28,513 nucleotides of DNA from a virus. The notes below the pieces were generated by a model. The model was not told where the DNA came from and made no database searches. It saw only the letters and a program-made list of their open reading frames with translations. The stretch spans positions 1 through 28,513 of the IMG/VR virus record IMGVR_UViG_3300032278_001453; one strand, written 5' to 3'. The translations under genes were made by a program, and so were the position numbers. Shown in pieces: positions 2,806-28,513 of this stretch. Within the stretch, counting starts at the first letter, position 1. Every line of letters starts with the position of its first letter.

Positions 2806-2950
2806 CCATATAGTTTTACGGTTACGTTGTGAATCCTGTCAACACCAATTCTCTATAGACGTTGGCATTTCCTTAGGCCATACCAAATATTTGTGGGCAA
2901 AACTCATGAGAGAAATCATGAGTCATGCCTACACACATACTTTGGACTAA
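2747..2950 (+). CDS. C2H2-like zinc mini-protein overlapping the HNH gene
   Basis: 67 residues from ATG 2747, overlapping the HNH 3' end by 59 bp in another frame. It contains CESC-x-H (C28, C31, H33) and, near the C-terminus, HAYTH (H60, H64), a layout that could hold one zinc. An AAAGGAG lies inside the ORF (about 2755-2761), 6 nt before an in-frame ATT codon at 2768, so a shorter non-ATG form is possible. The stop TAA overlaps the stop of the opposing papain-like gene by 4 bp. Not recognised; possibly a DNA-binding partner of the nuclease. Confidence 0.5.
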   Translation: MNLKEKLILIETTQTETEHNHIVLRLRCESCQHQFSIDVGISLGHTKYLWAKLMREIMSHAYTHTLD

Positions 2951-6378: not shown

Positions 6379-7122
6379 TTACCTACTAACTGCTGACTTG
6401 TGAAAGAATTTTCTATACCCACCACGAAAAACTGAGCCTACTTTACGAGCGCAAGCATTTTCTCTAGAGAGAAGCCTACCCCCACCATCCGTTGTGAAGC
6501 CAAGTTCCTGCTGAAAAGTTTCTCGCTTAAATGGAATCATCTGTACTAACGGAGTTCCTGCCTTAATGACACCTTCATAATCTGAAGGAGCTTTCCATAT
6601 AAAAGGAATGTTAATATATGTAGTAAACTCATCTGAACAGATTATACCAGCCACAGCCTCAAATCTACTATCCCTATTATTCATAGGAGGTATACATAAC
6701 ATTGAGTAATCTTTAGGAGTTTTAAGTATCCAGGGCGAATTGAACTTCAAAGTCACAGGACAAGAAGACATTTCCTTAAAGGGTTCAAACGCTTTGGATG
6801 CATCAGGATTTTGGCTTTGTATAACCTTATAGTCAAGAGTCTCCCCCCAACTAAACTTAGGTACAGTCCCACCTTCTACCTCAAACCCCATTGGTTCCAC
6901 GTAAATATCTGTCCATAGTGGAAGTATGTATCCTTGCAACATACTATCTAGTACAGCTGGACAACCCTTAAAACTTAATTGTGTAGAATAATATTCTTTT
7001 GCGCCTGGAAGGTCAATGCTTGCATCTTTGTACCATTGTGGTAAAGCTTGTGAAGCTGGTACAATGGGTTCTATAAATTCCCATTTAGAGTCACGTTGGA
7101 ATTCAATCTTAACAGGTTTCAT
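6379..7122 (-). CDS. DUF6065-like protein, copy A
   Basis: 247 residues. The order PIVPASQALPQWYKDAS, FKGCPAVLDSMLQGYILPLW, LKFNSPWILKTPKDYSMLC, a 'GIICSDEFTTYINIPFIWK' strand pair and IKAGTPLVQMIPFKRETFQQ resembles the uncharacterised DUF6065 family, whose members share a 'W-L-x-T-P-x-G-Y / G-x-P-x-x-Q-x-x-P-x-x-R' pattern. It is a paralogue of the gene at 10917-11690. AAAGGAT precedes the ATG. The fold is probably all-beta, and no catalytic residues can be named. The family name is a motif-based inference; the paralogy is directly visible. Confidence 0.6.
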   Translation of the reverse strand: MKPVKIEFQRDSKWEFIEPIVPASQALPQWYKDASIDLPGAKEYYSTQLSFKGCPAVLDSMLQGYILPLWTDIYVEPMGFEVEGGTVPKFSWGETLDYKVIQSQNPDASKAFEPFKEMSSCPVTLKFNSPWILKTPKDYSMLCIPPMNNRDSRFEAVAGIICSDEFTTYINIPFIWKAPSDYEGVIKAGTPLVQMIPFKRETFQQELGFTTDGGGRLLSRENACARKVGSVFRGGYRKFFHKSAVSR

Positions 7123-9603: not shown

Positions 9604-10170
9604 CTACTTTTTTATATCTACTAAATGAGCAGCTGCCATATAGTTAAACGAAACAGCTAATCGTTCCCCATTACTTTTAATGGTTTCTACTCCATGTTTA
9701 GTACTACCACTGAATATTACTAATTGCCCCGTTAATGGTTCAATGTTATGTTCCAATTCAGGAAAGAACAAAGTACCAGCATAATCTTTTGGTATGTCTA
9801 AATAAAAGACTCCACTCCATATAGAGGGCCAATGATTATGTACTTTAATGTAGTCATCCTTTTTATATAGAATCCCCCACATATTTGTAATACCTACTTC
9901 AAACGGCGTAGTCATACAATTTGGTATGAGGTTAGGTAAGTATTCTACCACACTATTGATTTCCTTTTCTAACTCTGTAAACCCAGGAGTGTTTTGCATG
10001 AATAAATCAGTCATGCAGGCGTTAGCCCCTACTGGATTATTGGCTTTGTCTCCACTATCCCTTATAGTTTGTATAATAGTATCTTTTGTAGCAGTACTAA
10101 TTTGTAAGGCTGTTGTAAATATACTATCAGACCCTTGTAAGGGAAAGTGTTGAGAAGCTATTTCTGACAT
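9604..10170 (-). CDS. 2OG-Fe(II) oxygenase, TIGR02466-like, copy 1
   Basis: The start is ATG 10170, coupled as TAATG to the Cys-rich peptide gene. A longer frame to 10209 exists but has no ribosome site. The 188-residue protein has KVHNHWPSIWSGVFYLDIP (His111 and His113), a KDYAGTLFFPELEHNIEPLT strand pair, STKHGVET (His159) and ERLAVSFN (Arg170, 2-oxoglutarate-binding). This is the HxH...H...R layout of the 2OG-FeII_Oxy_5 / TIGR02466 family, cytosolic non-haem iron dioxygenases found in many phages of unknown substrate. It is a close paralogue of 10336-10905 and lies directly upstream of thyX. Confidence 0.85.
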   Translation of the reverse strand: MSEIASQHFPLQGSDSIFTTALQISTATKDTIIQTIRDSGDKANNPVGANACMTDLFMQNTPGFTELEKEINSVVEYLPNLIPNCMTTPFEVGITNMWGILYKKDDYIKVHNHWPSIWSGVFYLDIPKDYAGTLFFPELEHNIEPLTGQLVIFSGSTKHGVETIKSNGERLAVSFNYMAAAHLVDIKK

Positions 10171-10325
10171 TACGGTTGTGTATCCCACTCCTCTTCTTCT
10201 TCGTGGCATTTTTCACAATCACATTTCATGCAATCACATTCTCTTTTTTCTCCGAAAGTAGCTTGGTCACAAGTACACTCTTCGCATGAACAGTCTGGGT
10301 CTTTAGGCCATAATTTAATATTCAT
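10170..10325 (-). CDS. Metallothionein-like Cys-rich peptide, 51 aa
   Basis: The start is ATG 10325 with TTAGGAG 7 nt upstream. An in-frame start at 10364 would lie inside the preceding gene. The 51-residue peptide begins MNIKLWPKDPDCSCEECTCD and has nine Cys in two clusters: CxCxxCxC, then, after about 12 residues, CxCxxCxCxxC (ECDCMKCDCEKCHEEEEEWD). The rest is acidic. Such dense CxC/CxxC spacing is the hallmark of metallothioneins and similar soft-metal-binding peptides. Its TAA overlaps the ATG of oxygenase copy 1, and it follows oxygenase copy 2 by 10 bp, so it may store or deliver Fe or Zn to, or protect, these enzymes (inference). Confidence 0.7.
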   Translation of the reverse strand: MNIKLWPKDPDCSCEECTCDQATFGEKRECDCMKCDCEKCHEEEEEWDTQP

Positions 10326-10335
10326 ATACTTTCTC

Positions 10336-10905
10336 CTAAGTTTTATAATTAACCATGCCATCAAAGTTAAAGGATATAGCTATCCTTTCTTGTGTGCTTT
10401 TTAACGTGTGTACACCATGCATAGTTCTTGATTCAAAGATAACTAATTGGTTTTTTACAGGTTCAATATGGTGTTCTAAATTCGGGAATAAGAGTGCCCC
10501 AGAATAGTCCGTTGGTATTTCTAAATAGAAAACTCCACTCCAGGCAGCAGGCCAATGGTTATGCATAACCGCAGATTCTCCTGTACAGTAGAGCAATCCC
10601 CACATGTCTCGTAGAACAATTTGATGATTCCCCCTCTTCTTTTTTGATATTTCTGTTACTCTTGTAGTAATTTCATGTCCTAGCATATCAAATCCAGGCT
10701 TATCTTGCATACGCCACTCCGTCATAAAAGCTTTAACATTGGATGATGCATATGGAATACCTTCATCTGCTTCTTTTAAATTACGAATGGTTTTAATCAA
10801 GCCGTTATGTACACCAGTAGGTAAAACTATCTCAGTAGTATACACACTCTCCTGTTCTGAGGACGTAAACTCTTCACATTGTATTGGCTTTTCTCTATCA
10901 CTCAC
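10336..10905 (-). CDS. 2OG-Fe(II) oxygenase, TIGR02466-like, copy 2
   Basis: GTG start at 10905 with AAAGGAT upstream. The 189-residue protein has AVMHNHWPAAWSGVFYLEIP (His115, His117), TDYSGALLFPNLEHHIEPV, SRTMHGVHTL (His163) and ERIAISFN (Arg174). The organisation and spacing match copy 1 (HNHWP...WSGVFYL, LEHxIEP, HGV.T.KS, ER.A.SFN), so the pair arose by duplication. The N-terminal half differs more than the catalytic half. It is cytosolic and its substrate is unknown. It lies between a DUF6065-like gene and the Cys-rich peptide. Confidence 0.84.
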   Translation of the reverse strand: MSDREKPIQCEEFTSSEQESVYTTEIVLPTGVHNGLIKTIRNLKEADEGIPYASSNVKAFMTEWRMQDKPGFDMLGHEITTRVTEISKKKRGNHQIVLRDMWGLLYCTGESAVMHNHWPAAWSGVFYLEIPTDYSGALLFPNLEHHIEPVKNQLVIFESRTMHGVHTLKSTQERIAISFNFDGMVNYKT

Positions 10906-10916
10906 AATAACATCCT

Positions 10917-11690
10917 TTAAATAAAATTAACGGGACACCCATGACGTTTACGATAACTGTCTTCAAAAGTAGTTGATAACGCATTCCGTTCTTGCTGCAT
11001 TTCCAACCATGTTTCATCCCCATCTTGACATTTCATATAAGAAATTTCATGTTTCCATTCTTCTCGTTTAATGGGAATAAGTTGTACTAAAGGAGTACCT
11101 TGTTTAATCACTTCCTCAAATGGATATTTAATATGGAAGAAAAAAGTTATTTGGTTTCTATAAGTATCCGTATTAACTAAACCAGTAAGTGTTTTAATAG
11201 CTGGATGCGGTTTAGATTCATCATTAAATGGAGACGTAATTAATGTTGAATACCCTGGAGGAGTTTTAATTAGCCAGGGATTACAAAACGCCATTGAACT
11301 GCCTTTAATAGAATCTTTTAATTCTGGAATATTGCCCCAAGAATCCCAATTTCTATGTTCTATCATTTCAGTACTAGGATAATTATAGGGAGGCATCTTT
11401 GGTGGAGCTACAGAAGGGACAAACTTTGGACAGCCCTCTTCACCACAGGTACATGAAGTATAAGAAAATGCTAAATCAGACCACAAAGGAATTATATAAC
11501 CAGTTCTCATAATATCCACAAAAGGCACACATCGTTTATATGTACTTCCTTGAGGAGAACCAGGGACTCTCCCATTATTTACCCGTGTGGGGTCATCTTT
11601 AAACCATTGTGGTAAAGCTAAATGGGCAGGAACGGGTTCTGGAAAGGCTCCTTTAAATGTCTCATCTATTACAAACTCCATTGTTTCCAT
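10917..11690 (-). CDS. DUF6065-like protein, copy B
   Basis: 257 residues, paralogous to 6379-7122: PVPAHLALPQWFKDD, YKRCVPFVDIMRTGYIIPLW, MAFCNPWLIKTPPGYSTLI, TGLVNTDTYRNQITFFFHIK and IKQGTPLVQLIPIKREEWKH line up block for block. It adds a Cys-rich insert (SCTCGEEGCPKFVPS: CxC-x4-C) absent from copy A, perhaps a metal site. AGGAG precedes ATG 11690. It sits between oxygenase copy 2 and the 131-residue gene, so both DUF6065-like copies travel with this block. Function unknown. Confidence 0.62.
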   Translation of the reverse strand: METMEFVIDETFKGAFPEPVPAHLALPQWFKDDPTRVNNGRVPGSPQGSTYKRCVPFVDIMRTGYIIPLWSDLAFSYTSCTCGEEGCPKFVPSVAPPKMPPYNYPSTEMIEHRNWDSWGNIPELKDSIKGSSMAFCNPWLIKTPPGYSTLITSPFNDESKPHPAIKTLTGLVNTDTYRNQITFFFHIKYPFEEVIKQGTPLVQLIPIKREEWKHEISYMKCQDGDETWLEMQQERNALSTTFEDSYRKRHGCPVNFI

Positions 11691-11701
11691 ATACTTTTCT
11701 C

Positions 11702-12097
11702 CTAACTAACATCAAAATACCAACCGTATTCAGGCATCTCCTCCATTGAACCATTCAGAACGTTCTTATTAAAATCGAAAGTCATTTGAAAATCAGACCC
11801 AGATTGAACGAAATACCACTTTACAGACGGGTCTTTAAAAGCTGCCCTATACCGTTTCCCTTCATAGAAAGCTTCATCATTAGTATCATAGAAGAATTCC
11901 TGATTATCCAAAAAATATGCTTGTAAACTTTCTAACGTCATACAAGATAAATCAAACGTAGCTAACTCAGTTATACGTTCCTCATATATTTTTTGTTGTT
12001 CTTCAAAGTCCTCTGCATCTTTACCAGTTAAGGGCGTGTTCAACTGTGCCCATTGCTGGTCTGAATAAGGTTGTGCTTGAGGGGGATATTGTTGCAT
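11702..12097 (-). CDS. Hypothetical protein, 131 aa
   Basis: GGAGGTG precedes ATG 12097. A Gln/Pro-rich start (MQQYPPQAQPYSDQQWAQLN) leads to a helical, acidic middle and an aromatic beta-rich C-terminus (DPSVKWYFVQSGSDFQMTFD, EYGWYFDVS). No metal motif or span. Not recognised. It lies between two oxygenase-cluster genes in one operon. Confidence 0.6.
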   Translation of the reverse strand: MQQYPPQAQPYSDQQWAQLNTPLTGKDAEDFEEQQKIYEERITELATFDLSCMTLESLQAYFLDNQEFFYDTNDEAFYEGKRYRAAFKDPSVKWYFVQSGSDFQMTFDFNKNVLNGSMEEMPEYGWYFDVS

Positions 12098-12115
12098 TAT
12101 TACACCTCCAAAATA

Positions 12116-12820
12116 TTATCTATATTTATGATGTGGAAAATCTCTTGTCGTAGCAAAACCCATCCATAAATTAATAGAGAACCTATTGTCTTTAAATTCT
12201 CCTTCATGTTGAGTCTCATTTACCGCATGTATACATTTATTAGATTCAAAAAATATAGCAGTATTATGTACAGGTGTATATGCTAATTGGTCTTCAAGAG
12301 TTTTGCCAGTTAATATAAGTTCCCCACCTGTATACTGTTGTGGTTCCGTATTCCAGTGAACTACACAAGTAATAACCCTTTCATGAGGGAATTCATTTGA
12401 AGTATCTTTATGCCACCCATAAAAATCACACATACCATAAGAACTTAATATGGTTTCCATGTGTGTGGTTTGAGCAATTATGGGGAACAACCCTGGTAAC
12501 TTTTTAAACGTGCCAAGAAAAGATTGGTTTGTTAGAGCTACTTCTAATTGCGATAGAATAATGCTCTTCTCTCTTCGCTTATTATAATAACCATCTAAAT
12601 ATACAACATCATTATGCCGTGTACCTAATTCTACTGTATTAGAAATGATTTCACATGTTTCGCATCCATCTAATTCTGGTAAATCGCCTATTTTGGCTGG
12701 TTCATACATAGGTTCTAACCATTGAGCCTCTTCCAAACATTTCCTAGCTGCTGGAATAGACATAAAGTTCTCTACTACTACATGAGGACTAGGACTTTCT
12801 TTATACTTTATCTTCTGCAT
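12116..12820 (-). CDS. 2OG-Fe(II) oxygenase, prolyl-4-hydroxylase-like
   Basis: 234 residues with the complete double-stranded beta-helix signature: H137-x-D139 (FYGWHKDTSNEF), GGELIL (165-170), the distal His198 (NKCIHAVNETQ) and Arg213 (NRFSINLWMGF), which should bind the 2-oxoglutarate C5 carboxylate. It belongs to the P4H/2OG-FeII_Oxy superfamily rather than to the TIGR02466 pair downstream. AGGTGG precedes ATG 12820. Such phage enzymes hydroxylate proteins or small molecules in the cytoplasm, and the target is unknown. First enzyme gene of the operon driven by the 13180-13208 promoter. Confidence 0.86.
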   Translation of the reverse strand: MQKIKYKESPSPHVVVENFMSIPAARKCLEEAQWLEPMYEPAKIGDLPELDGCETCEIISNTVELGTRHNDVVYLDGYYNKRREKSIILSQLEVALTNQSFLGTFKKLPGLFPIIAQTTHMETILSSYGMCDFYGWHKDTSNEFPHERVITCVVHWNTEPQQYTGGELILTGKTLEDQLAYTPVHNTAIFFESNKCIHAVNETQHEGEFKDNRFSINLWMGFATTRDFPHHKYR

Positions 12821-12828
12821 AGTTCCAC

Positions 12829-12975
12829 CTATTCTTTTTCTAAAATCTTCATGCTCAAAGCACCAATTAATGTTATACCACCTGTAGCAATCTCTGTCAA
12901 TCCCCAGTACATAGCAAAAAATGTGATACTCCCTAACAAACCAATGCTAAGGAGTATTTGAGGTCTAATCATCAT
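12829..12975 (-). CDS. Membrane mini-protein, 48 aa
   Basis: From tandem ATG codons at 12975/12972 to TAG 12829. Two hydrophobic stretches (ILLSIGLLGSITFFAMYWGL; ATGGITLIGAL) could be two short spans or a hairpin. It begins 2 bp after the 55-residue gene with no clear ribosome site, so it is likely read by coupling. Its end abuts the oxygenase gene. Not recognised. Confidence 0.5.
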   Translation of the reverse strand: MMIRPQILLSIGLLGSITFFAMYWGLTEIATGGITLIGALSMKILEKE

Positions 12976-12977
12976 GG

Positions 12978-13145
12978 TTATAAGTACTTGTAATATTCGG
13001 TTTGAATATTATCTACGTGTTTCTTACCACCATTATTTCTTAAATATTTATGATATTCTTCTGAATATCTTTTCTCAGTACAACAAACTTTAGTTATACC
13101 ACCTAGAATTAAAAACCCACATACACAAATAACAACTTCAACCAT
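12978..13145 (-). CDS. Small protein with hydrophobic Cys-containing N-terminus, 55 aa
   Basis: First gene after the 13180-13208 promoter. GGGAGG is 4 nt before ATG 13145. The N-terminus is hydrophobic with Cys residues (MVEVVICVCGFLILGGITKV, then CC), followed by a charged, Tyr-rich cytoplasmic-type tail. Probably a one-span membrane protein. No family is recognised. Confidence 0.55.
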   Translation of the reverse strand: MVEVVICVCGFLILGGITKVCCTEKRYSEEYHKYLRNNGGKKHVDNIQTEYYKYL

Positions 13146-13179
13146 AGAACCTCCCTATATATATTTATATTTCTACTAT

Positions 13180-13208
13180 ATTATACTCCTATTATATTGA
13201 GAAGTCAA
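13180..13208 (-). promoter_or_regulatory. Canonical sigma-70 promoter for the oxygenase operon
   Basis: On the minus strand TTGACT (13203-13208), 17 nt, then a perfect TATAAT (13180-13185). It is in a very AT-rich 100-bp gap upstream of the 55-residue gene and would drive the run of leftward genes from 13145 onward. The best promoter match in the window. Confidence 0.85.
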
Positions 13209-13248
13209 ATACTTTTAGGGGGAATATATAGTATTTAATAATATAGGG

Positions 13249-16185
13249 TTATTTCTTTGTGCTAGAATATATAGGCTTTCCCATATTTCCCATAGTTCCT
13301 GTCTGTTGCTGGAAGTTGCGTTGTGATTCAACTCCAGAATCTCCAAATCCTTGTGATGTAGTATCCCCCTTTGGCAAACTACCATTCTGAGAGAATTGCG
13401 GATTCTGTTGCTTCATTTCAGCGTCCCACTCAGCACGTTGTTTCTGGTCTGCTATATAATCTTGTTTACCAGTACCGAAACGTCTGTTAATCTTTCCAGC
13501 TAAATCTCCTGCAAACATCTGAGCAGACCAGTTAGCGGTTTGACCCGCTTGGTCAGTATCAGGCCTTCTAGATTCTAGTTCTGCGGAAGTAGGCATGGGT
13601 GCTGTATTAGTATTAGCTCCCACACCCTTAGGTGCCTGAGGTGCAGCCTTGGGCCAAGCATTTTCAATATCCCGCATAGCATTCTGTCTTGACATGCCTA
13701 CCTTAGCTGGTGTAACATCACCTTGTTTCATCAGTTTTAGAAGAGCCTTTTCAACAGAGTTTACATGAAAGCCTTCATCAGGATGTTTATAATCCTCGTA
13801 AGTACTATCAGTGTCACGCACAGCTGCTTCCCTAGCCTTTCGTTGAGCATCATAGAGAGCCTTAATATATTCCCAATCTGGTTTTCCTGAGCCAGGATGT
13901 TGGTAATGTGGCAATGTTTCTCTATGAGGAACATCTCCTTCAAAGGCATCCCGTTCAGTTAATCTACGCATGGCTTCTTGACCAGTAAGAGGTTTCCCAT
14001 AATTTACAACGTCATGGTCACCTTCATACTTCTCCCTCTCATCATCAAAATCATCAGGTAATGAAGATACTTTAAGTATGGCCTCCTCCATAGGAATTTT
14101 ATCACCCCAAGCACGTTTTTGGGCAGCATCGTCCTTACTCTGGCTTGGATGTTCATCAGGAGCCATTCTCCGATTGATTTGACGTTGCTGATAAATACGT
14201 TTCATCTCTTCAGCCCTCTTACTTCCCTGAGGTTCTGGCCCCTCGCCTGCTTGCCAGGGCCAATGGGGATTATCCTCAGCCTTCTTAAACATCTTGTCAT
14301 TCGTACCAACTTCAGACTTAGGACGTTTGGAATCGCCATTAGCTACCAATGCTTGGGATTCTTTATTCTCTTTAGGGAGGCTTCCCTTATCCATTGCATT
14401 TAGTGGTTGCTCATCTCCACCTTTCATAAGTTTAAGGAGGGCTTTTTCAACAGACATTTCAAAAGGACTCTTTCCAGCGGGTCTATCACGGGCTATCTTT
14501 TCACTAGCCTGTCGGCCCCGCCAATCTTGTCGAGCATGAGCATCCATTAGTTCTGGCCTATCTGGTGCTTCATAAGCAGATTCAGGTTGGAAAAAATCAC
14601 GGGTAGCTCTACCAGCCCTACCAGGCATGGTAGTTGCTCTACCAGCACCATAGCCCATACGTTCTCCTACCTGTTCTAGACCTGTTTGTGGGCCTACATC
14701 CCCAATGTTTTCTCCAACTGGTGGCTCTATGAGATGTTCAGGTGTATCCCTCATAGACCAACCCCCTCTTAAACCCGCACGAACTTCTTCAGCAGGGCGT
14801 GTAACGCCAGCCCTTAAAGCATCTTCTGCTACCTCTGGATTTAATTCACTAGCAGAACGGTCTGCCACACGCATGGGAACATTACGGATAGCTCTACCAG
14901 CCCTTTCTGCCCTAGATTGTGGTTTAGCATCTCTATGTTCGCTGAAATACTTATCCCTATTCTCGTCAGGCATTAGTCCACGCCCGAAATTACCAACTGC
15001 ATCTGGTATCCGAATTTTCTCAAGGTCTTCGTCTTTCATCAATTTGAGGAGAGATTTTGTAACGTTATTGTGAATATTTTCCTGGCCTGGTGCCCTTTGG
15101 TCAAGTTTAGCTTCGCCACGTTGAACTACAGGTACGTCTTTCCCACTCTCACTTCCAAGAGAATCAGGGTTTTCCCCTGGTTGTGGCTGTCCAAAGGTAA
15201 TCTCGGAAGGTAATCTCCATTCTTGTGTATCCATACCCCTTTGAGATACATCACCTCTAGGAGAGGGAATGTCTCGTTCAGTATCCTCCATAGGGCCACC
15301 AGGGAAACCAACTTTTATAGTACGAGGGTCTTTTAAATCCTCTGCCCTTCTACGAAGCCACTCCTGAGAATCTTCCAAATGCTCATCTGCCTTCATAAGT
15401 TTAAGCAAAGCATTTTCTATAGCTTTCGATGTATTAGGGAGTTTCCTCCCATGTATTGTTTGAGTATGATATAGAGAAGGGTCAGCTTCCATCTCAGCCC
15501 GTGCCTTCGCCCCTCTTTCTAAAGCACTTCTTGAGCCATATCTCATATGTCTAGCTCGTTCTCTTAGTGCCTCTGGAGAAGCTTCTTGTGCTAATCGGTC
15601 AGCAGAGGTTTTTCGGGCAGCATCTACCATTTCAGGAGGCATATCAGTAGGCCGTCTACCCAAGATAGTCTCAGCCCGTTCCCCAGCCGTAGGAGTACTT
15701 CCTATATCTCCCTCTTCAGGAGTTCGGGGTAAATTCCCAGGTGTGCCCCCAGACAAACCTGGCAGGGGTTCATATGTTACAGGTTCTTCAGAAGAAAAGG
15801 GTTCCAGTTGTCTTTGAGTAGCACGGAACCTGGGCTTCTCTTCAGCCTTCATTAATTTTAGCAAAGCTTTTTCAACAGAAGATTTATATGGATAATTACC
15901 CGCACCAGCAGTATCCTCGTCTTGGGGATAACTATCACGGCCTACTCTACGGTCATCCCTTCTTAGTTGTGCCCTCTCTTTAGAAGTGAAACCATTCTTT
16001 AATGGAACACCTGGGCCTTCGGGATGGTCTGCGCTAGTCACAGGAGCTTTAGGCAAAGGTGTAGATTCATCCCAATCAGGATTTTCTTCCGACACCCCTC
16101 TATCACCGCCAACATTGTTTTTGAAAAAGTCTAGAGTTGATTTCCAATGTAGATTATTCTCGATTGGTTTTCCATAGTCTGGCAT
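13249..16185 (-). CDS. Giant low-complexity head-module protein with five LLKLMK motifs, 978 aa
   Basis: AGGAG precedes ATG 16185. The protein is mostly Pro/Glu/Arg/Asp-rich and predicted disordered, with no enzyme domain. Its striking feature is a motif S/N-V/I-E/T-K/N-A/S-LLKLMK at residues 103-113, 255-265, 374-384, 578-588 and 810-820, each followed by an acidic patch (AEEK, ADEH, DEDL, GGDE, QGDV). A degenerate copy (MEEAILKVSSL) is at about 699. Between motifs are RxxR/Gly segments. It sits directly downstream of the protease gene. It could be an internal head protein, scaffold or substrate polyprotein whose helices target it to the capsid (inference). The ends resemble no known family. 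Confidence 0.8.
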   Translation of the reverse strand: MPDYGKPIENNLHWKSTLDFFKNNVGGDRGVSEENPDWDESTPLPKAPVTSADHPEGPGVPLKNGFTSKERAQLRRDDRRVGRDSYPQDEDTAGAGNYPYKSSVEKALLKLMKAEEKPRFRATQRQLEPFSSEEPVTYEPLPGLSGGTPGNLPRTPEEGDIGSTPTAGERAETILGRRPTDMPPEMVDAARKTSADRLAQEASPEALRERARHMRYGSRSALERGAKARAEMEADPSLYHTQTIHGRKLPNTSKAIENALLKLMKADEHLEDSQEWLRRRAEDLKDPRTIKVGFPGGPMEDTERDIPSPRGDVSQRGMDTQEWRLPSEITFGQPQPGENPDSLGSESGKDVPVVQRGEAKLDQRAPGQENIHNNVTKSLLKLMKDEDLEKIRIPDAVGNFGRGLMPDENRDKYFSEHRDAKPQSRAERAGRAIRNVPMRVADRSASELNPEVAEDALRAGVTRPAEEVRAGLRGGWSMRDTPEHLIEPPVGENIGDVGPQTGLEQVGERMGYGAGRATTMPGRAGRATRDFFQPESAYEAPDRPELMDAHARQDWRGRQASEKIARDRPAGKSPFEMSVEKALLKLMKGGDEQPLNAMDKGSLPKENKESQALVANGDSKRPKSEVGTNDKMFKKAEDNPHWPWQAGEGPEPQGSKRAEEMKRIYQQRQINRRMAPDEHPSQSKDDAAQKRAWGDKIPMEEAILKVSSLPDDFDDEREKYEGDHDVVNYGKPLTGQEAMRRLTERDAFEGDVPHRETLPHYQHPGSGKPDWEYIKALYDAQRKAREAAVRDTDSTYEDYKHPDEGFHVNSVEKALLKLMKQGDVTPAKVGMSRQNAMRDIENAWPKAAPQAPKGVGANTNTAPMPTSAELESRRPDTDQAGQTANWSAQMFAGDLAGKINRRFGTGKQDYIADQKQRAEWDAEMKQQNPQFSQNGSLPKGDTTSQGFGDSGVESQRNFQQQTGTMGNMGKPIYSSTKK
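13726..15879 (-). repeat. Five-copy protein-level LLKLMK repeat
   Basis: Coding copies at 15847-15879, 15391-15423, 15034-15066, 14422-14454 and 13726-13758. The five 33-nt segments encode nearly the same 11 residues but use different Leu, Ala/Ser and Lys codons (for example the fourth to seventh codons differ in most pairs), and spacing is irregular (152, 119, 204 and 232 residues). Recent DNA duplication would leave similar codons, so the identity is probably kept by selection on the peptide. Confidence 0.8.
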
Positions 16186-16188
16186 ATG

Positions 16189-19100
16189 TTATCTCCTAGT
16201 TCCAGCTAACCCAAAGGCTTTAGCAAATATCTTATGTACAGGGACAGAATTTTCTACAGAGTATTTAATGGGTTCTCTATCTTGTGCCCATGCAGGCCTT
16301 CTAGCATCTCCCCTAGGTGTTGGCCTGCTAGTCCTTCGCCCATAATCTTGCGGCCCCCTCACTCCTGTGTGAGCGGCGGTTCGTTCTTCTTCAGTAGATT
16401 CTTGAGTAGGTTCTTGTCTTGCCAATCCATCCATTGAAGGACGGTCACCACGTAGCCGTTTGAGTTCAATGCTTCTCCCAAATTCATTGGAATCTCCAAG
16501 CCTATTTAGAATAGCATCGTAAGCTTCTGCTCCAGCACCACCATGTCTTCCATGATGTACTTGCATATTGCGGCCTAAATGTTGCCTCATATCCGCAAAA
16601 TTGATGGGTTTATTCCAATCATCATTACTCATGTTTATACTATGATGATTTGCAAACCTATCTCCATCTTCTGTTTGACCTAAGTGATGGATAACTGACA
16701 TCCAATCTTTGGGGGATAGCCTGCCACCTTCATTTATATGGTCTAAACGTTCTTGTACATGATTATGTCTCTGGTCAGCATCCATTCCTTGATGGGCTGT
16801 GGGAGAGTAGCGAACATCTTTCCCTACACCCTCATTAACACCCATGCGTCTCTGTTGTTGGGCAAGTCTACCGTATCGAGGAATCCTATCTACACCCTCA
16901 CCAACTAGTTCTTGACCTCGGCCTACGTTTTCATCCAACCAACCACGTAGTTTGGCTCCAGCCCCCCTGCCACGCATTCCAGCTTCATCAGCCTGTCTAC
17001 GGGTAGCCCCTAATTCATCAGGCATATATCTCCTGGGCTGTCCAACACGCCTGGCATCTTCTGGGTCTTCCATAAAGCCCCGTCCAAAGCCTCTTGCTGC
17101 CCTAGCCCCACGTCCTAGCCATTGTCGAGCCATACGGCCTACCTGTCCACCACGTTCACGAGAACCAGCACCTAGACGATTATCTGTTTCACCCAAGACA
17201 GATGCAGGATGGTCAGATACAGGCAAGTCAGGTCTTACATCCTCACGAGGTTTCATAAACCCACGGAATGCACCACCAGCAAATTCTGCTCCTCTCCTAG
17301 CCCCACGTCCTATCTTACGAGCTTCTTGGTTGGCCCAAGCAGCCCCCTTACCCTCGTTCATTGATTCGTCTCTGAAACCTCTGCCTATGTTTTCAGCAAC
17401 TCCACCCACTTCTCCACGTAAATCTCGGAGATTTTGGTCAGCCTCACGGTATTTCTGCCTACCACCTCGGAACAAGCGTTTCATTCCTTGATGAGCTTTT
17501 TCTCTAGGAGATAGGTTTGCCATCCTATCCCTTCGGCCTTCATACCCTCTTCGGCCTCTAACGCCAGCTACAATTTCATCAGCATCGTATTCTTTGCGTC
17601 CACCTCTTCTTTCCCGCCCTTCTCTTGCGGCATCTGCCCTGTTTCTTGCAGCTGTCTGCCCTGGCTCATCTTCCCCACGGCGATATCGAATGCCTGGGCC
17701 TTGTAAAGGTTGTCTGCCCCCTCTTGGTTGGTCTTCTACAGGAGTTCTAACTGCTCGGCCCTGTGCAGGACTAATTCGTGTGTCATCACGTCTACGTCCA
17801 GCCTGAGTATCAGCATCATCATCTGGAACTCCACGAATTTTTTCTCGTAATGCTTGACTACCTACAGCATCATCCTGTTGGGGTCTACGGAATAAGTTTT
17901 TAAATCTTCCCCACACACCAGGCTTCTTACCCCGTTCTCCCTCCCCCTCTTCTGCTGTAGGTTCAGCAGAAGGTGCAGCAGCCCGTGCCCTCACCCCAGC
18001 AGGCGAAGCACCAGGGAAAGGAGCTTGGTCAACATTAGCTTCTCGTAAAGCAGCAGCCCTATCTTTCGGAGCATACATCTCTGGGTTATACGGAGAGGTT
18101 GGCCCAGACGTTGGCAGAGGAGTAGGACGTTGATAATCACGCATTAAATCTGCTTCCCCCGCACCAATCGGGCTTTCGTTACGTCTACCTTGTTCAGTTT
18201 GTACTGGTTGGGTTCCAGCAGGATTTTTTACATTATAGGGGTTTGGCGCACCATAATTTACTTGTGGTTGCCAAGCACTTACACCCATTGTCTCCCCTGT
18301 TTTGTCAGGATTTTCACCTTCAGGAAAGGCTTGTCCAGGGTTTGCTTTACCCATACGTTTTGCAGCTTTCTGCATAATATCTTCAAAAAGATTGATAGAC
18401 TTTTTCAAGTCATCGTCATTATCCAGTCTTTCGCCCAGATTTTCTCCCGCTTCATTTACAACCCACGGAGGTCTAACATTAATAGGACAACCATCATCAT
18501 CAGTTTCGGTTTCAGATACAGGGATATAACGCATCGTTCTCATATCAACTTCGGAAGGGAAGCCATAACGTTGAAGAAGGCGATGGTGTTCGGCTTCCCT
18601 CCCCGCAAAATTATTAAGAGTAGTGAACGACTTACCACTCTTTAATGGGTCTTCTTCTTTTGACATCCAATCTAAAAAGGAATCCTTAAAGTTTATTTTA
18701 CCAGTATCATCAGACCTCATAATCACAATCTTCCTTTTAATGGATACATGTGGCTGGCTTCCTTCTTCACAAGCCTCAAAGAGTCTGCAATAATCCCCAG
18801 GTTGAATATCGCCAACTACAACCTCACATGTTTTCCGTTCTGCATTAAAGTATTTGCAATGACCACAATTGATTCCCATTTGCATTTCGGGTGCCGTTGC
18901 ATCACGATACCCACATTGGTCTTTATCTACTTTTCCTGTTTGAGGCAACTCTGCTTTAAGCAGTTCAAAGTTTGCCCCCTGATTTACACCTTTCTCACAA
19001 ATAGTAACTTCAGCTAATTCCATTTCATCCACTTGCATGTAAGGAGTTTGGCCCTTCATCATATTTTGAACTTTGGTTGCACTTCCAGCTATTGAATAAC

Positions 19101-19644
19101 TCTTTAACATTCCAGTATTAATCTGGTCTGCTACTTTTTTAGCAATTGCTGTATCATCACGCAGTTCACAGATAAAGAATAACCCCTGGTCACCTACACC
19201 AGATTTAAATATCTGCCCACCTTTAGATATATAAGCGGGTAAAGCCCAACCTACCTGAACGTCTGAATGTAGTACCATAACGTTACGAGTACGTTGGTTA
19301 TCCATAAACTTTTGGAAGGCTTTACCCAATGCTTGAGTAGTAATTAAATGACCTTCTCTATCAATCATTTCAACAGATGCGGGGCCACCAATAACTAAAG
19401 GTTCCACCATATCCATTTTTTGAATTCCTACCGCTGCTTGTTGATAAGTAGGACTATCTGGAAAAGCCCTATGGAGGGTCATAATTTCGGCTTTAGAAGC
19501 ATTTCCTGCATCAAAATTATTTCGGTATTCACCTAAAGCATCCTGAATGTCTTCCATTGTAGTTTTACCAGTTTGTCCCTTCTCTAACCAAAAGATAGAT
19601 TCGGGTCTTTGAGCTACTTCTGATGTAGTAAAATATCTAGACAT
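16189..19644 (-). CDS. Head maturation protease (XkdF-like) with HiPIP-like Cys motif and long Arg/Gly tail, 1151 aa
   Basis: Residues about 76-230 match a phage prohead serine protease of the XkdF/S78-like type: VEPLVIGGPASVEMIDREG, H126 in NVMVLHSDVQVGWALP and S184 in KSYSIAGSATKV, ending in VTICEKGVNQGANFELLKA. Next, C244 and then C260-x2-C263-x9-C273-x12-C286 (NCGHCKYF...TCEVVVGD...DYCRLFEA) resemble the four-Cys [4Fe-4S] motif of high-potential iron proteins. Residues about 420-1100 are a low-complexity Arg/Gly/Ala/Pro region with imperfect repeats such as GRGARRGAEFAGGAFRGFM and GRGARAARGFGRGFM. The C-terminus reads KYSVENSVPVHKIFAKAF, partly like the SVEKA motif of the next gene. Ordinary proheads proteases are 200-400 residues, so the tail is unusual. 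Confidence 0.8.
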   Translation of the reverse strand: MSRYFTTSEVAQRPESIFWLEKGQTGKTTMEDIQDALGEYRNNFDAGNASKAEIMTLHRAFPDSPTYQQAAVGIQKMDMVEPLVIGGPASVEMIDREGHLITTQALGKAFQKFMDNQRTRNVMVLHSDVQVGWALPAYISKGGQIFKSGVGDQGLFFICELRDDTAIAKKVADQINTGMLKSYSIAGSATKVQNMMKGQTPYMQVDEMELAEVTICEKGVNQGANFELLKAELPQTGKVDKDQCGYRDATAPEMQMGINCGHCKYFNAERKTCEVVVGDIQPGDYCRLFEACEEGSQPHVSIKRKIVIMRSDDTGKINFKDSFLDWMSKEEDPLKSGKSFTTLNNFAGREAEHHRLLQRYGFPSEVDMRTMRYIPVSETETDDDGCPINVRPPWVVNEAGENLGERLDNDDDLKKSINLFEDIMQKAAKRMGKANPGQAFPEGENPDKTGETMGVSAWQPQVNYGAPNPYNVKNPAGTQPVQTEQGRRNESPIGAGEADLMRDYQRPTPLPTSGPTSPYNPEMYAPKDRAAALREANVDQAPFPGASPAGVRARAAAPSAEPTAEEGEGERGKKPGVWGRFKNLFRRPQQDDAVGSQALREKIRGVPDDDADTQAGRRRDDTRISPAQGRAVRTPVEDQPRGGRQPLQGPGIRYRRGEDEPGQTAARNRADAAREGRERRGGRKEYDADEIVAGVRGRRGYEGRRDRMANLSPREKAHQGMKRLFRGGRQKYREADQNLRDLRGEVGGVAENIGRGFRDESMNEGKGAAWANQEARKIGRGARRGAEFAGGAFRGFMKPREDVRPDLPVSDHPASVLGETDNRLGAGSRERGGQVGRMARQWLGRGARAARGFGRGFMEDPEDARRVGQPRRYMPDELGATRRQADEAGMRGRGAGAKLRGWLDENVGRGQELVGEGVDRIPRYGRLAQQQRRMGVNEGVGKDVRYSPTAHQGMDADQRHNHVQERLDHINEGGRLSPKDWMSVIHHLGQTEDGDRFANHHSINMSNDDWNKPINFADMRQHLGRNMQVHHGRHGGAGAEAYDAILNRLGDSNEFGRSIELKRLRGDRPSMDGLARQEPTQESTEEERTAAHTGVRGPQDYGRRTSRPTPRGDARRPAWAQDREPIKYSVENSVPVHKIFAKAFGLAGTRR

Positions 19645-21253: not shown

Positions 21254-22618
21254 TTAAGCGTTTAGGTCAGCTATCTTAGCCTGGACAAAGAAGTTCTTGC
21301 AGCGCAACTCACCAAGAGTGTACAACAAGCCCCTGACAACCAAGCTGTTAGCAGCGAAGTAGTCACGGTTCTCAATGTATTGGGTAGGCTGGGCAATTGA
21401 CATCTCTAGGAAGTCAGTGTCCAACACGTAAACGTTACTACCCATTACTGCGCCAGCAGACGAAACTGACTTAGGCACATCGGCATCAGGTAGGATGGGG
21501 ATACCCATATAGGTAGCCAAAACCAATCCAGTGCGGGTACCAGGGAAGGTACGCTCAGAGCCTACCCCAACCTGATATTCTTCCTGACCCATATAGCGTT
21601 GCTGCGAGTTAAGCAGCCGTTCCAGTTTGAAGTACTGGTCATGACCCATGAGGATGAGCTTTGGCTCTCCACCATTTTCCCGTACCTTTTGGATACAAGT
21701 ATCAATCAGGTTAAGGGAGAGGTCACGGCCTACACCAGCGTTATGGCTGATGTTAGCAGCAGCATTCCAACCACCAGCAGTCCGTCCAGCCAACGACAGG
21801 TCAAAAGCCCTAGCGTTAGCTTCCAAACCACCAGAAGCCATACCGTCTTCAGCTACTATATCGTCCAAGCTAGTGAAACCAGCACGGGAATATACATAAG
21901 CCAAGTCACCAGAAGCCCATGCAGGGCTAGAGGTATCGACGGTTACGGTACCACCACTGTGGGCGGTAGCCGAAGCACCACCAACGGTGACACCAGAGGT
22001 TAGGTCATGAGCAGATGCGGAACCATCGTAACGGGCAATTTCGTCACCCAGATGGAAGTTGTTAGCAATGGCGAGACTGCCGAAAACAGCAGTTGTACCA
22101 CTACCACCAGTAGCCCTAGCAGCAGCCAAGGACAACAGTTCAAAGTTGACCTCTTTCATGTGGTCTAGCTGGGCGTTTTCATTCTCCAACGCCAGCACGT
22201 CACCAACACCGCCTTCTAACTGAGCGGTGAAGACTGACTTGACCGATGCACCGAAGGTTGTAGCAACGATTCGGGGCAAGCTGGAAACCGTCTGGATAGC
22301 AGAGATGTCTACTGTCGGGAGGTTACCAGTTTCTAGAATAGGCATACTGCGGTTAGAGCCACGGTCAGACCGAATCCTCCAACCAGCTGTGTTACCCCAA
22401 ACGGTTCGGGGAACAGCATTGAAAAAGCGTGTTTGGTTGTTCAAAGCCTGCCAGACTTTCCGTCCATACGTGGTATTAAAAATACCAGTAGCGGTATCAA
22501 CCGTGAACGGAGTACCAACACCAGCTCCAGCCTTTTTCATAAAGCCAGGGCCGAATACACTCTGATACAACCCTCGTTGTGACTGAGCAATATACTCAGC
22601 AAGGGATGGATTAGCCAT
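21254..22618 (-). CDS. Major capsid protein, HK97 fold, 454 aa
   Basis: AAGGAG precedes ATG 22618. The N-terminal arm (MANPSLAEYIAQSQRGLYQS) leads to GIFNTTYGRKVWQALNNQTR, an E-loop-like region with Arg/Ser (WRIRSDRGSNRSMPILETGN) and TFGASVKSVFTAQLEGG. Helical domains follow (NLIDTCIQKVRENGGEPKLI, MGHDQYFKLERLLNSQQRYM), then P-domain strands with GIPILPDADVP and the C-terminal ENRDYFAANSLVVRGLLYTL. The order and length fit HK97-fold capsid subunits, and the place after a scaffold-like gene agrees. Codons here are clearly richer in G and C than in the small neighbouring genes, as often seen in highly expressed phage genes. It forms the icosahedral shell. Confidence 0.88.
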   Translation of the reverse strand: MANPSLAEYIAQSQRGLYQSVFGPGFMKKAGAGVGTPFTVDTATGIFNTTYGRKVWQALNNQTRFFNAVPRTVWGNTAGWRIRSDRGSNRSMPILETGNLPTVDISAIQTVSSLPRIVATTFGASVKSVFTAQLEGGVGDVLALENENAQLDHMKEVNFELLSLAAARATGGSGTTAVFGSLAIANNFHLGDEIARYDGSASAHDLTSGVTVGGASATAHSGGTVTVDTSSPAWASGDLAYVYSRAGFTSLDDIVAEDGMASGGLEANARAFDLSLAGRTAGGWNAAANISHNAGVGRDLSLNLIDTCIQKVRENGGEPKLILMGHDQYFKLERLLNSQQRYMGQEEYQVGVGSERTFPGTRTGLVLATYMGIPILPDADVPKSVSSAGAVMGSNVYVLDTDFLEMSIAQPTQYIENRDYFAANSLVVRGLLYTLGELRCKNFFVQAKIADLNA

Positions 22619-22647: not shown

Positions 22648-23493
22648 TTATCCTAATAGTTCCCGTGGAACGCCATCAGTCTCGCCATTCTCGATGGTTT
22701 CCTGCAACCGACGCAAATCCTGATAGGACAATTGCATCATCTGGTCAACAGTATCCTGTCCACTCGATTCTTTCTGAATCAGAGCAGTCCCATCGGTACC
22801 CATGCTATCTTCATAGCGGATAATGGTAGGACGAGTGAGCGAAGTCTCTTCACGGAAGCCCATCTTTCGTAGACGGCCCTCAGTTTCCTGTTGAACGGCT
22901 TTCTGCATATCGAAAGAGCCAGTCAACGCAGCCTTCAACTCGTTAATCTGCTTCTGCATATTTTCTATTGCTGGATACTCTTCAGCGTTCTCGACGGCAT
23001 AATGCGTCAGGCCCATCCGTTCTGAATCCTCATCGCCATTCTCTTCTTCGTCATCTTCTGGTTTCTTTTCCTCTTCATCCATGTCCTCATTGCCATTAAA
23101 CTCATCTTTTAACAAGTCAAGCTGTTTTTGCATAGCTTGAATAGTTGCCTGCTGGTCAGTCAGTTTGTTAACAACAGTGACTGCTTTCTCGGAGTCATCG
23201 TGGCCTTTCGCCACAGACGAAGCTTTACGTTCTTTCGCAGAGCCTTCCTTATCAAGGTCAGGCATACCAGCGTCAGCTTTAATCAAACCGTAAACTTCAC
23301 CAGCAACGGCTTTAATGATTTCTTGCTTCTCAAAGGCATCCTGTTCGTCTTCAGCCAACTCCATGTCATACTCTTCCTGCTTACTTATACGGGAGTCCAT
23401 CTTGTGTAAGACCTCCGCAACAGCAGCAAGAGCAAGATTAGAGCCTTCTATCTGTTTCTCCAACCTGTCCACAATGTCATAGTCTTGTGCCAT
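22648..23493 (-). CDS. Scaffold-like acidic coiled-coil protein, 281 aa
   Basis: The start is ATG 23493, 6 nt after AAGGAGG. An in-frame ATG at 23499 touches the ribosome site and is less likely. The protein has a helical start (AQDYDIVDRLEKQIEGSNLA), a long coiled coil, and a very acidic centre (MDEEEKKPEDDEEENGDEDS), and ends with a Gln/Glu-rich helix (QDTVDQMMQLSYQDLRRLQE). The position just before the capsid gene, together with acidity, coiled coil and size, is typical of head scaffolding proteins removed by the protease. No sequence family was named with certainty. The promoter region at 23586-23615 is upstream. Confidence 0.65.
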   Translation of the reverse strand: MAQDYDIVDRLEKQIEGSNLALAAVAEVLHKMDSRISKQEEYDMELAEDEQDAFEKQEIIKAVAGEVYGLIKADAGMPDLDKEGSAKERKASSVAKGHDDSEKAVTVVNKLTDQQATIQAMQKQLDLLKDEFNGNEDMDEEEKKPEDDEEENGDEDSERMGLTHYAVENAEEYPAIENMQKQINELKAALTGSFDMQKAVQQETEGRLRKMGFREETSLTRPTIIRYEDSMGTDGTALIQKESSGQDTVDQMMQLSYQDLRRLQETIENGETDGVPRELLG

Positions 23494-23563
23494 GTGCATC
23501 CTCCTTCCTAGTTCAGAAAGTTGGTCTAAGCCACCTCCGACTTCCCGATAAATAAATAGATAC

Positions 23564-25778: not shown

Positions 25779-25899
25779 AAGCCCTCCTCACTGTAAGTAC
25801 TATAATGGTGCCACACATACGGCAATTTAAGTCTTTGTCCTCATTGACATACATGCTGCCTGAACATTTAGGACATATACTATCAGAAATATTAGGCAT
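25582..25899 (-). CDS. Zinc-ribbon ORF overlapping the HTH-phosphoesterase gene
   Basis: The start is probably ATG 25899 (MPNISDSICPKCSGSMYVNE), 8 bp before the end of the giant protein gene, with AAAGG upstream. C9-x2-C12 and C26-x2-C29 (NCRMCGT) make a convincing zinc ribbon. The frame then stays open about 197 bp into the HTH-phosphoesterase gene, giving an Arg/Asp/Gly-rich tail (DGDIEMDRGRVRDFDS, RRRGRPRRT). The tail may be genuine overprinting or simply a stop lost to chance or sequencing error. The ribbon is the more trustworthy part. Confidence 0.5.
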   Translation of the reverse strand: MPNISDSICPKCSGSMYVNEDKDLNCRMCGTIIVLTVRRAYDSRTGKIRDNKKKGRGGDVDGDIEMDRGRVRDFDSSNHRPTLVRQRGFQRRRGRPRRTLGVDRG

Positions 25900-28513
25900 A
25901 GTCAACCTTTAGAAGTGCATTAAGTATTGGGTTCTCATCCCCCGCTGCCTCTAATGCTTTCCGCATTGATTCTAGTTTCTTTTCTGCTTCAGGTAAGTCA
26001 ACCCAATCTAAATCACTATCCTCTTCTGTAATTTCAGGGTCTTCTATATCTTTATCTCCTCCCCTTTCTAACGCATCAGGATTTATACCACCAGCAGCCA
26101 TGGACATCTGCATAGTTGACCCAGAGGGATAATGCCCCATTCCAACAGCAGCCATCACTCCTGCTGGCTGTTCATGTCCTGTATCTTCTTCTTTATCATC
26201 GTAAGATTTAATCTTTTTCTCCATATCATTCTCCTTTACTACGGCATCTTTCTGAGGAGGTTCATTGGGATTATCTTTCGTCCGTTCAACAAACCCTTTT
26301 TGAGGATGTTTCCCAATCGCAGGGTCATTCTCTGTAGGAGATAGATAAGTCATAGACCCCTCAGAACTCAGTTTTTGCATATTCTGTATATGCGGAGGCA
26401 ATGTTGCCTTATAGTCATCTAATTCATCTGGATGAACTCTACGAACTTCATCACTTTGAATATGCGGAGGAAAATGCTCTCCCTCAGGGCTTTCTTCCCC
26501 TCGTTCTGGGTCATAAAAATACGGCCTAATAGGAGTTCTTTCTTCCTCTTTTTGCATATAAGACTTATGTTGACCCCATTCTTGGGCACGGGGATTTTGT
26601 GCATTTCCAACAGAATTAATATTGTAATGCCGTGGATAAGTGGATGTTGTACCCGTTTCCATCCCCCCTGCCTGGCCCATATTAGCATTCGGTTGATTAT
26701 CTTCAGCCTTTTTCTGCCAATCTAATATCTTTCGGCCCGTAGCTTTATTGTTCCAAGCATGTGCTGTGCCTGCATCGCCCGTCATCATTTTATCAGGCTT
26801 CCTAGCTTTAGACATATTAGGAGAACCATCATACAGAAATTGAACTAATCGGTCTACCCCACTCTTTTTCTCTTTTCCTAATAATTTTTTACGTTTTTTC
26901 TCCTGCTTCTTATGGCGTTTTTCATGCTTCCGTTGTGTTTTATGCCCCCCATATGTAGGTGAGAAAATTCCAGCATTAGTAGACGTAAAGACTGTATCAG
27001 ATAGCCCATTAAAGGCTCCACCGTCTCCCCCTCCATCGCCTTCTTTCCTAAGGGAGTTTTCCATACCCATTCTAGCCCTCTCACGTTCTGAAGAAGGAAT
27101 AACTTCTCTCCAAACAGGAAGAGTGTCAAGATTATATTGACTACGTGTTCCATATGTAGAAGAGTCGTTTACTGGGCCTGAAAGACCACCTTCTCGTTGA
27201 GTTGGAAATTGGCGTGGTAAACCCCCATACCCTCTCGCAGATAAATGTTTACTAGCAGATGAACCTTCTCGCCAATGCTCTTGAACATTGCGAGGGTTTT
27301 CGGGGGTTCCTTTTTCTTTCTTATGGTCAACTGGCCCATACCGTCTAAAGTCCCTATTCCCACGTAAATATTCCCTACGATTTTCAGCAGCAGCTTCATC
27401 TAATGCATCTTCGGGGTCTACTTCCTCGTCATCAGGATTTGATAAGTAATCAGCTAATTGTAACGAGTTGGGGTCTGCCTGAGAATCCCATGTATTTGTG
27501 ACGTGTGTAAGTAAATCCATCCAAGCTGCCCATCGTGCTTCCTGTAACTTATCCCAATCAGGATTATGTACTCCTGTAGTCGAACTATGCAAGGATTTAC
27601 CTGTATCATTAATGGTTAAAGGAGTGTGGCCTTCTAATGGGGCTGTTCCAGTAGGCTGTGACATATGTAAAAATTCAGGGAGTGTTAGCAGCCTCATCGA
27701 ACCGCCAGCCTGTGTACCCCAATACGCTTCCATCCCCCGACGATATGGAGGATATGCTGCCTTTACACCACTTGGCGGTTGAGTAGCCCCATTATAATGC
27801 CAATCTATAAAATCGGCATGGCTTTTAGCTTCTTTTTCTTTTTCATAAGCTGCCACACCAGAATCTTCCATAAATCCTTGCGGGATTGACTCAGCGGGTA
27901 TATGATTCACTACTGCTTTTTGGTTTTCTCTATCTGTATTAATTCTAGGAAATCTTAATCTATTTGTAATGATGTGCGGATAAGCCTCCGACTCTGGGTT
28001 TGCAAACAAGACAGTATCGTTTCCTTCATATGCGGTTTCCCCCTGGTATGGAGTATCACCACCAGTTTGACCTTTATCATGATATTTCTTTTCGGCTAAG
28101 TATTTATTAATACCTTCTGCCGTATGATTATGATAATCTACGCCGTGTTGCAACCCTTCCCAATGCTCATGCCAAGAGAGAGGCACCCCCTTAGCCAGCT
28201 TCTGTGTATAAGTATCAAAAGCTCGTTTATTATGGGCACCTTCATAATTATCATAATGAAGGGGGGAGAAAGCTAATGTTTTCCCTCCAGGCAAAGGTGG
28301 CCCCATATGATGATGTTCTGGATTCGCAGGCCGTCTTAATATGTTCGGGTTAAACTCTTGGTCTACGGGTATCATCTTACCGCCCTCTTGAACATGTTCC
28401 CATGCTTCGGGGTCTACTGGGGGCGTACCATATGGTCTAAATGTAGATGGTTCTGAGGCTCGTCTTTGACCTCTTCGTGCAAATTCTGCCATTGGGTCTG
28501 ACGAAATCTTAGG
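25892..28513 (-). CDS. Giant low-complexity head-module protein, 5' end outside window
   Basis: The frame is open to the right edge (28513). An ATG at 28492 has no Shine-Dalgarno and the seven codons before it continue in frame, so it is probably internal; at least 873 residues are visible. It is rich in His, Pro, Gly, Glu and Lys, with no enzyme motif. A strongly basic block at about residues 516-542 of the ATG 28492 numbering (KHEKRHKKQEKKRKKLLGKE) could bind nucleic acid. The middle has GMENSLRKEGDG and the end has NPILNALLKVDYA, both echoing the SVEKALLKLMK motif. This might be the C-terminal extension of a portal or another head protein; the upstream part would decide. Confidence 0.65.
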   Translation of the reverse strand, partial: PKISSDPMAEFARRGQRRASEPSTFRPYGTPPVDPEAWEHVQEGGKMIPVDQEFNPNILRRPANPEHHHMGPPLPGGKTLAFSPLHYDNYEGAHNKRAFDTYTQKLAKGVPLSWHEHWEGLQHGVDYHNHTAEGINKYLAEKKYHDKGQTGGDTPYQGETAYEGNDTVLFANPESEAYPHIITNRLRFPRINTDRENQKAVVNHIPAESIPQGFMEDSGVAAYEKEKEAKSHADFIDWHYNGATQPPSGVKAAYPPYRRGMEAYWGTQAGGSMRLLTLPEFLHMSQPTGTAPLEGHTPLTINDTGKSLHSSTTGVHNPDWDKLQEARWAAWMDLLTHVTNTWDSQADPNSLQLADYLSNPDDEEVDPEDALDEAAAENRREYLRGNRDFRRYGPVDHKKEKGTPENPRNVQEHWREGSSASKHLSARGYGGLPRQFPTQREGGLSGPVNDSSTYGTRSQYNLDTLPVWREVIPSSERERARMGMENSLRKEGDGGGDGGAFNGLSDTVFTSTNAGIFSPTYGGHKTQRKHEKRHKKQEKKRKKLLGKEKKSGVDRLVQFLYDGSPNMSKARKPDKMMTGDAGTAHAWNNKATGRKILDWQKKAEDNQPNANMGQAGGMETGTTSTYPRHYNINSVGNAQNPRAQEWGQHKSYMQKEEERTPIRPYFYDPERGEESPEGEHFPPHIQSDEVRRVHPDELDDYKATLPPHIQNMQKLSSEGSMTYLSPTENDPAIGKHPQKGFVERTKDNPNEPPQKDAVVKENDMEKKIKSYDDKEEDTGHEQPAGVMAAVGMGHYPSGSTMQMSMAAGGINPDALERGGDKDIEDPEITEEDSDLDWVDLPEAEKKLESMRKALEAAGDENPILNALLKVDYA

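Follow-up and report, generated by a model that had tools for sequence, protein, structure and literature searches.

Among uncultured marine phages of one group, a short amphipathic helix recurs at the boundaries between exchangeable modules of two large proteins, M and U, which are encoded beside head genes. We analyzed a 28.5-kb virus record from this group (the window, meaning the whole stretch of 28,513 nucleotides), whose genes lie on the minus strand (Table 1). As read from the sequences, the motif copies in M sit at junctions between exchangeable modules. We propose that the helix serves as a tag, for docking or for head targeting, and that modules are swapped behind it in both M and U; we put the probability of this reading at about 0.5. 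Its basis is a sharply conserved helix predicted within disorder, variation in helix number and spacing, exchange at the helix, the sharing of the helix by M and U, and the neighborhood of head genes. M and the portal-adjacent U would then be modular head-region proteins in which most modules open with the same amphipathic helix, with the core [KN][AS][LV]xK[LI]MK. The helix would dock on one shared partner within the prohead as it forms, be it the inner face of the capsid, the scaffold, or the core, and any module fused behind it would thereby be recruited into the head. With the tag unchanged, modules would be free to diversify and to pass from virus to virus, just as T4 internal proteins do with a capsid-targeting sequence in front, and M would carry several tags on a single chain. 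We infer the virion location of M and U, the existence of a helix partner, release by the neighboring protease, and module activity after ejection; the M modules would be putative cargo.

Table 1. Features of the window that bear on M, U, and the junction helix
Feature	Position	Strand	Evidence
Major capsid protein (MCP)	21254..22618	-	SU10_MCP 1.2e-9 (Pfam); phrog_24667 4.2e-20
Probable scaffold, acidic, contains YAVENAEEYPAIENM	22648..23499	-	Suggested by position just before capsid gene and by composition; motif counts
S78 prohead protease with ~720-aa Arg/Gly-rich tail	16189..19644	-	PF04586 5.5e-6; PHROG head maturation protease 2.6e-13
Gene M, modular 978-aa protein, largely disordered, with five junction helices	13249..16185	-	ORF ATG to TAA
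N-terminal segment of M, MPDYGKPIENNLHWKSTLDFFK	16120..16185	-	Conserved in M of L002, L006, L013
Helix copy 1, residues 103-113, SVEKALLKLMK	15847..15879	-	AF2 helix 103-113
Helix copy 2, residues 255-265, AIENALLKLMK	15391..15423	-	AF2 helix 252-285
Helix copy 3, residues 374-384, NVTKSLLKLMK	15034..15066	-	AF2 helix 372-383
Helix copy 4, residues 578-588, SVEKALLKLMK	14422..14454	-	AF2 helix 574-588
Exchangeable module behind copy 4 (..QALVANGDSKRPKSEVGTNDKMFKK)	14278..14421	-	89% DNA identity with L002 over 177 nt from motif; unrelated upstream
Claimed degenerate sixth copy, ~residues 698-709	14059..14094	-	Not significant
Helix copy 5, residues 810-820, SVEKALLKLMK	13726..13758	-	AF2 helix 809-820
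Protein U, modular, truncated by window end; adjoins portal in relatives	25892..28513	-	Portal in G001, phrog_18178 1.1e-40
U junction GMENSLRK, residues 483-490, ahead of conserved KEGDGGG..FNGL core	27044..27067	-	Precedes other module in L016
U C terminus NPILNALLKVDY, borderline likeness to helix	25898..25933	-	12.3 bits

M had been described as the neighbor of a head protease, and the adjacent gene does match the S78 domain above its curated cut-off (PF04586, 27.0 bits versus 21). M lies downstream of it after a gap of 3 nt. The protease tail contains 103 Arg in 721 residues; it is Arg/Gly/Ala-rich (window 16189-18350; L034:4278-5741) and has recurring motifs of its own, [MV]GR[LMY]F and RGFxRGFM. 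Gene M is confined to viruses with a long protease tail. It was found directly behind the protease in all 10 contigs with a complete long-tailed protease (860 to 1168 aa) and downstream sequence and behind it in none of >50 contigs with a short protease (about 390 to 560 aa). In other lineages (L146:1493-3064 and L156:9442-11136), the protease is followed by an ORF for another low-complexity protein, whose N terminus carries an LLKA-type helix (MNLFKSLLKAQ, MNKLKLLKAY). The probable scaffold (window 22648-23499) contains Y[AS]VENA, which is kept across much of the lineage. Strings of the form [SAGT][VIM]E[NKQ][SA] are overrepresented in scaffold-like proteins (17 versus 2.3 in shuffled sequences, maximum 9) and are possible protease sites. 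Elsewhere in the window, three 2OG-Fe(II) oxygenases and two DUF6065-like proteins adjoin ThyX (9604-12820 and 6379-7122); these are repeated small-metabolism genes. A small protein (window 2947-3423) weakly matches the C-terminal domain of the ricin-type lectin/agglutinin family (6.8e-5, under the curated cut-off).

The MCP and protease are distant kin of those of haloarchaeal tailed viruses (26 to 30% identity). An archaeal host, which this kinship suggests, is less likely given that a close relative (G001) encodes a sigma factor and a DnaB-like helicase, primase (DnaG), and PolA-type polymerase; because of these genes, the host is likely a bacterium. A search of bacterial and archaeal genomes with an MCP alignment gave no relatives, and a portal search hit a single phage contig, binned with Ca. 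Daviesbacteria.

The five copies predicted in M at residues 103, 255, 374, 578, and 810 were all confirmed in the ORF translation, and 13726-15879 is the exact span from the first through the last. Three are exact SVEKALLKLMK and two are variants, giving the type [VI]E[KN][AS]LLKLMK. Every copy runs into acidic residues within a few positions, as had been claimed. Similarity among the copies far exceeds expectation: 70 10-mer pairs in M scored at least 30 (BLOSUM62), versus 2.5 on average and 14 at most in shuffles, and the best pair scored 45 versus a shuffle maximum of 40. The degenerate sixth copy proposed near residue 698 was not upheld, since its 2.5 bits fall inside the shuffle range (95% point, 7.8). 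Conservation of the peptide and not the DNA was borne out by the differing codons used: the five copies gave 47 identical, 37 synonymous, and 16 nonsynonymous codon pairs. Where two copies have the same residue, the codon was identical in 37 of 74 pairs, a mild excess over the 27.5 expected from the ORF's own usage. The counts of identical and synonymous codons indicate that the copies are old, although they still align as DNA at 60 to 76% identity. An AlphaFold2 model of M (seven homologues) agreed with the predicted disorder, with 704 of 978 residues (72%) at pLDDT <50, and placed a short helix at each of the five copies. M had no relatives in Pfam, PHROGs, or the 50,697 phage records of INPHARED.

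Besides the window, eight distinct loci carry M-type genes: L002, L003/L016, L006, L013, L021, L031, L036/L037, and L093. L003 and L016 nearly duplicate each other, as do L036 and L037; L031 and L093 were assigned by position and motif only, and the L013 gene is cut inside its first motif (..SSIEKSLL). In L016, M appears frame-broken right at a motif (12157-13419; ..GSVENF, restart MKDGD), either a sequencing error or a genuine break; the near-identical L003 is intact. Further M searches returned already-known loci only. The motif DNA pattern, run across all viral contigs, gave 20 stretches, many of them in a small, unrelated protein (DFGENALLKLMK.. and the like), and these were rejected as chance matches.

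M-type genes have one to seven motif copies, with spacing that differs between viruses. The sequence between copies is mostly unrelated across relatives, and most of the surrounding sequence is less conserved than the motif itself. Among 30 copies chosen by PSSM, information is limited to ten positions and the flanks are near-random; L7 and K9 are each present in 29/30, M11 and K12 in 28/30, and A/S6 in 30/30, with E in 23 copies and S/A two residues ahead of it in 18. Two observations had been named as refuting the original interpretation, namely identical spacing and codons in all homologues, and homologues lacking the motif while the rest is conserved. Both are contradicted among the relatives, where spacing, number, and codons all vary and the motif stays while the remainder changes.

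The stretches that separate the motifs of a single M are mutually unrelated and have the motif alone in common. Once motifs were masked in the alignments, 10 of 13 internal homology starts came no more than 5 aa after a motif (null mean, 0.78; never above 6 in 20,000 draws). When all homology ends were counted, 14 of 32 lay within 10 aa of a motif versus 10.5 expected, a weak excess (P = 0.12); significance was limited to starts, and to ends that lay near a motif on both sides. Because starts, and not all ends, cluster at motifs, the alignments indicate that conserved blocks of M start at a motif and fade before the next one. One cassette, FYHPDN..FKREFPEL, occurs in L006 and L021 with 77% identity over 191 aa and is flanked on both sides by motifs. 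The IYVQRQINxRNAPGEH piece precedes this cassette in L006 and follows it in L021, a permuted order.

Recent switches are visible at the DNA level. Over 821 nt that end with ..SKLMKFVQK, L005 and L006 have 99.6% identity, and beyond this point their modules are different and unrelated; L159/L163, L160/L162, L016/L017, and the M genes of L006/L021 likewise switch at a junction. Between the window and L002, M is unrelated ahead of copy 4 and matches from that copy on (Table 1), which is the left edge of a module common at the DNA level to L002 and L003. We counted the internal ends of DNA blocks of at least 80% identity. A junction lay within 14 aa of the end in at least one partner in 25 of 35 cases (null, 7.0; maximum, 18) and in both partners in 15 of 35 (null, 0.4; maximum, 5). 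The contigs are metagenomic and the statistics ignore kinship among the viruses. The counts are strong but not independent, because the viruses are related and the U junctions were partly picked by eye.

In relatives, the portal gene comes before U. U consists of modules Q, H, R, and X and a conserved KEGxGGG core, in an order that differs between viruses. Its junctions, which are partly degenerate and were partly recognized by eye or defined after viewing, carry a KLMKF-type pentad ([KN][LI][MQ][KNHS][FL], e.g., KAVSKLMKFVQ) at 15 of 21 distinct sites; the form ahead of modules is KA[VI]xKLMKF. Most lack the E of the M motif. The original prediction had also noted echoes of the motif in neighboring proteins. 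GMENSLRKEG in U proved real by synteny, and the L016/L017 DNA breakpoint falls on this junction. NALLKVDYA at the U C terminus is borderline (12.3 bits versus a shuffle maximum of 13.2), and KYSVENSVPVHKIF in the protease was unsupported (0.1 bit). Module Q is modeled by AF2 as a helical domain (pTM, 0.64) for which a structural search against the PDB gave no match. Pfam and PHROGs searches with M, U, and their modules gave nothing useful, and the M modules have no recognizable domain in these collections.

The contig from the Ca. Daviesbacteria bin is a distant relative, with 60% identity in the portal and 61% in the MCP; the binning is possibly wrong, and its phage genes alone were used. Behind its portal are a 679-aa protein with DUF192 and ADP-ribosyltransferase domains, a NUDIX protein, an SNF2/DEAD helicase, and a topoisomerase IB protein with a weak Mu-F match (L176:2512-4692). 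A helix (..DWLEKQ..) recurs in four of its proteins, at the N terminus of three and inside the fourth, and stands ahead of the ADP-ribosyltransferase and topoisomerase domains. Its forms are FKEWVEKQ, LDEWLEKQ, LADWLEKQ, LLKDFLEKQ, and LLNDFLEKA, two of them inside the 679-aa protein, and LVPK follows within about ten residues in 4 of 5 cases. At the sequence level, a different helix is thus used in the same arrangement as in M and U, tag then module. About 46 kb separates the portal and capsid genes of this virus. Its portal-adjacent enzyme genes (L174:12874-21137, L176:1998-4692), several of which have the DWLEKQ..LVPKK helix, possibly encode effectors packaged in the head.

Three roles had been proposed for M: a polyprotein of packaged peptides, a multivalent scaffold, or membrane-active helices. 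The tag-plus-module reading, which is near the first, has gained strong support because module exchange is bounded by the motif and the junction is common to M and the portal-adjacent U. Its fullest version, in which M would be a cargo polyprotein of up to seven tagged modules that is drawn into the prohead, cut by the protease into tagged effectors, and ejected with the DNA, with the helix as swap site, seems to us rather unlikely. No cleavage site was identified in M, and if uncut, its tags and modules would remain one chain. M may instead be a multivalent core or scaffold, in which five helices along a flexible chain hold several copies of one head protein together, in the manner of EPYC1 or CsoS2 with Rubisco, and the rest is spacer. 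Several near-identical stickers in a disordered chain, free variation in helix number and spacing, and the presence of M only beside the unusual giant protease tail would suit such a role. Spacer should drift, however, yet the FYHPDN cassette is well conserved and modules travel as units, and U has a conserved, probably folded helical domain among its modules. We regard the scaffold as possible, if on the unlikely side.

The motif could also mark polyprotein junctions, mainly as a prohead protease site (S-V-E-K, cut after E) in which the helix is incidental. The giant phage SPN3US, whose head matures in a T4-like way, cleaves after AXE (PMC7411985). The S/A-V-E-N/K-A/S strings of the scaffold-like proteins (17 versus 2.3) would speak for such a site, as would similar strings near the protease C terminus. 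In M, however, E is missing from 7 of 30 copies and S/A stands two ahead in just 18, the near-invariant L7, K9, M11, and K12 sit after the supposed cut, most U junctions have no E, and S and E would equally fit a helix N-cap; a cleavage site is therefore doubtful as the main function. Membrane-active helices delivered upon infection are very unlikely. The helix is amphipathic (hydrophobic moment, 0.61) and has several lysines, but helices of that kind tolerate hydrophobic swaps, whereas M11, K9, K12, and A/S6 are nearly fixed here, and two proteins have this helix at their module boundaries. The clustering of DNA breakpoints at junctions and the mild excess of identical codons in M could reflect a scar of recombination or a duplicated linker that has no function at the protein level, at which crossovers merely happen. 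A scar would not hold ten residues, and the peptide is kept despite 37 synonymous codon pairs and across viruses with only about 60 to 80% DNA likeness there, which makes this explanation very unlikely.

The tag reading has its closest parallel in T4, where Ip1-3 have nothing but an N-terminal packaging leader in common (PMC12373910) and this leader is thought to be a means of packaging various proteins (PMC9026906). As in the T4 internal proteins (IPI-III, Alt), a short peptide is common to otherwise unrelated proteins, here the modules of M, and M and U. The T4 leader, however, is single, N-terminal, and removed by gp21, whereas the M/U helix is internal and present in up to seven copies per chain. 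A position at the extreme N terminus was not found, the first copy in M lying at residue 103 and those in U being mostly internal; the E of a T4-type X-X-E occurs in the 23 of 30 copies noted above. The helix probably works like a T4 capsid-targeting sequence; we say works like, and not is, because its position is internal and packaging and cleavage are presumed, and we claim neither family membership nor sequence kinship. In phage P1, the first 30 residues of DarB, a 251-kDa head protein, package a reporter (PMC9024508). The likeness lies in a giant head protein recruited via a short segment, but DarB has one N-terminal signal, with no consensus among Dar proteins and no internal repetition reported, whereas the M/U helix is repeated.

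Genes for MuF polymorphic toxins lie right after the portal and encode a conserved part with exchangeable modules, and head delivery has been proposed (PMC5576092). U resembles them in lying directly downstream of the portal in relatives; M does not. In the window lineage, Pfam matched no Mu-F or toxin domain in either U or M, and the repeated junction helix sets M and U apart. EPYC1 and CsoS2 are disordered linkers with repeated short binding segments that act on Rubisco. Linkers of this type (PMC8573418) recall the repeated short helices in the disordered chain of M, but they have spacer between segments where M has conserved modules that pass from one virus to another.

Only a few model phages (T4, P1) have known short packaging peptides, and we found no mention of the motif peptide in the literature searched. 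If our reading is correct, a packaging helix repeated within one protein and readable from sequence would find packaged proteins in uncultured viruses, and giant disordered phage proteins would evolve by module swaps behind a fixed connector at which recent breakpoints are visible. Modular packaged proteins and packaging leaders are already known; what is to our knowledge undescribed is a leader that is repeated within one chain, is common to portal-adjacent and protease-adjacent proteins, and is itself the place of visible exchange.
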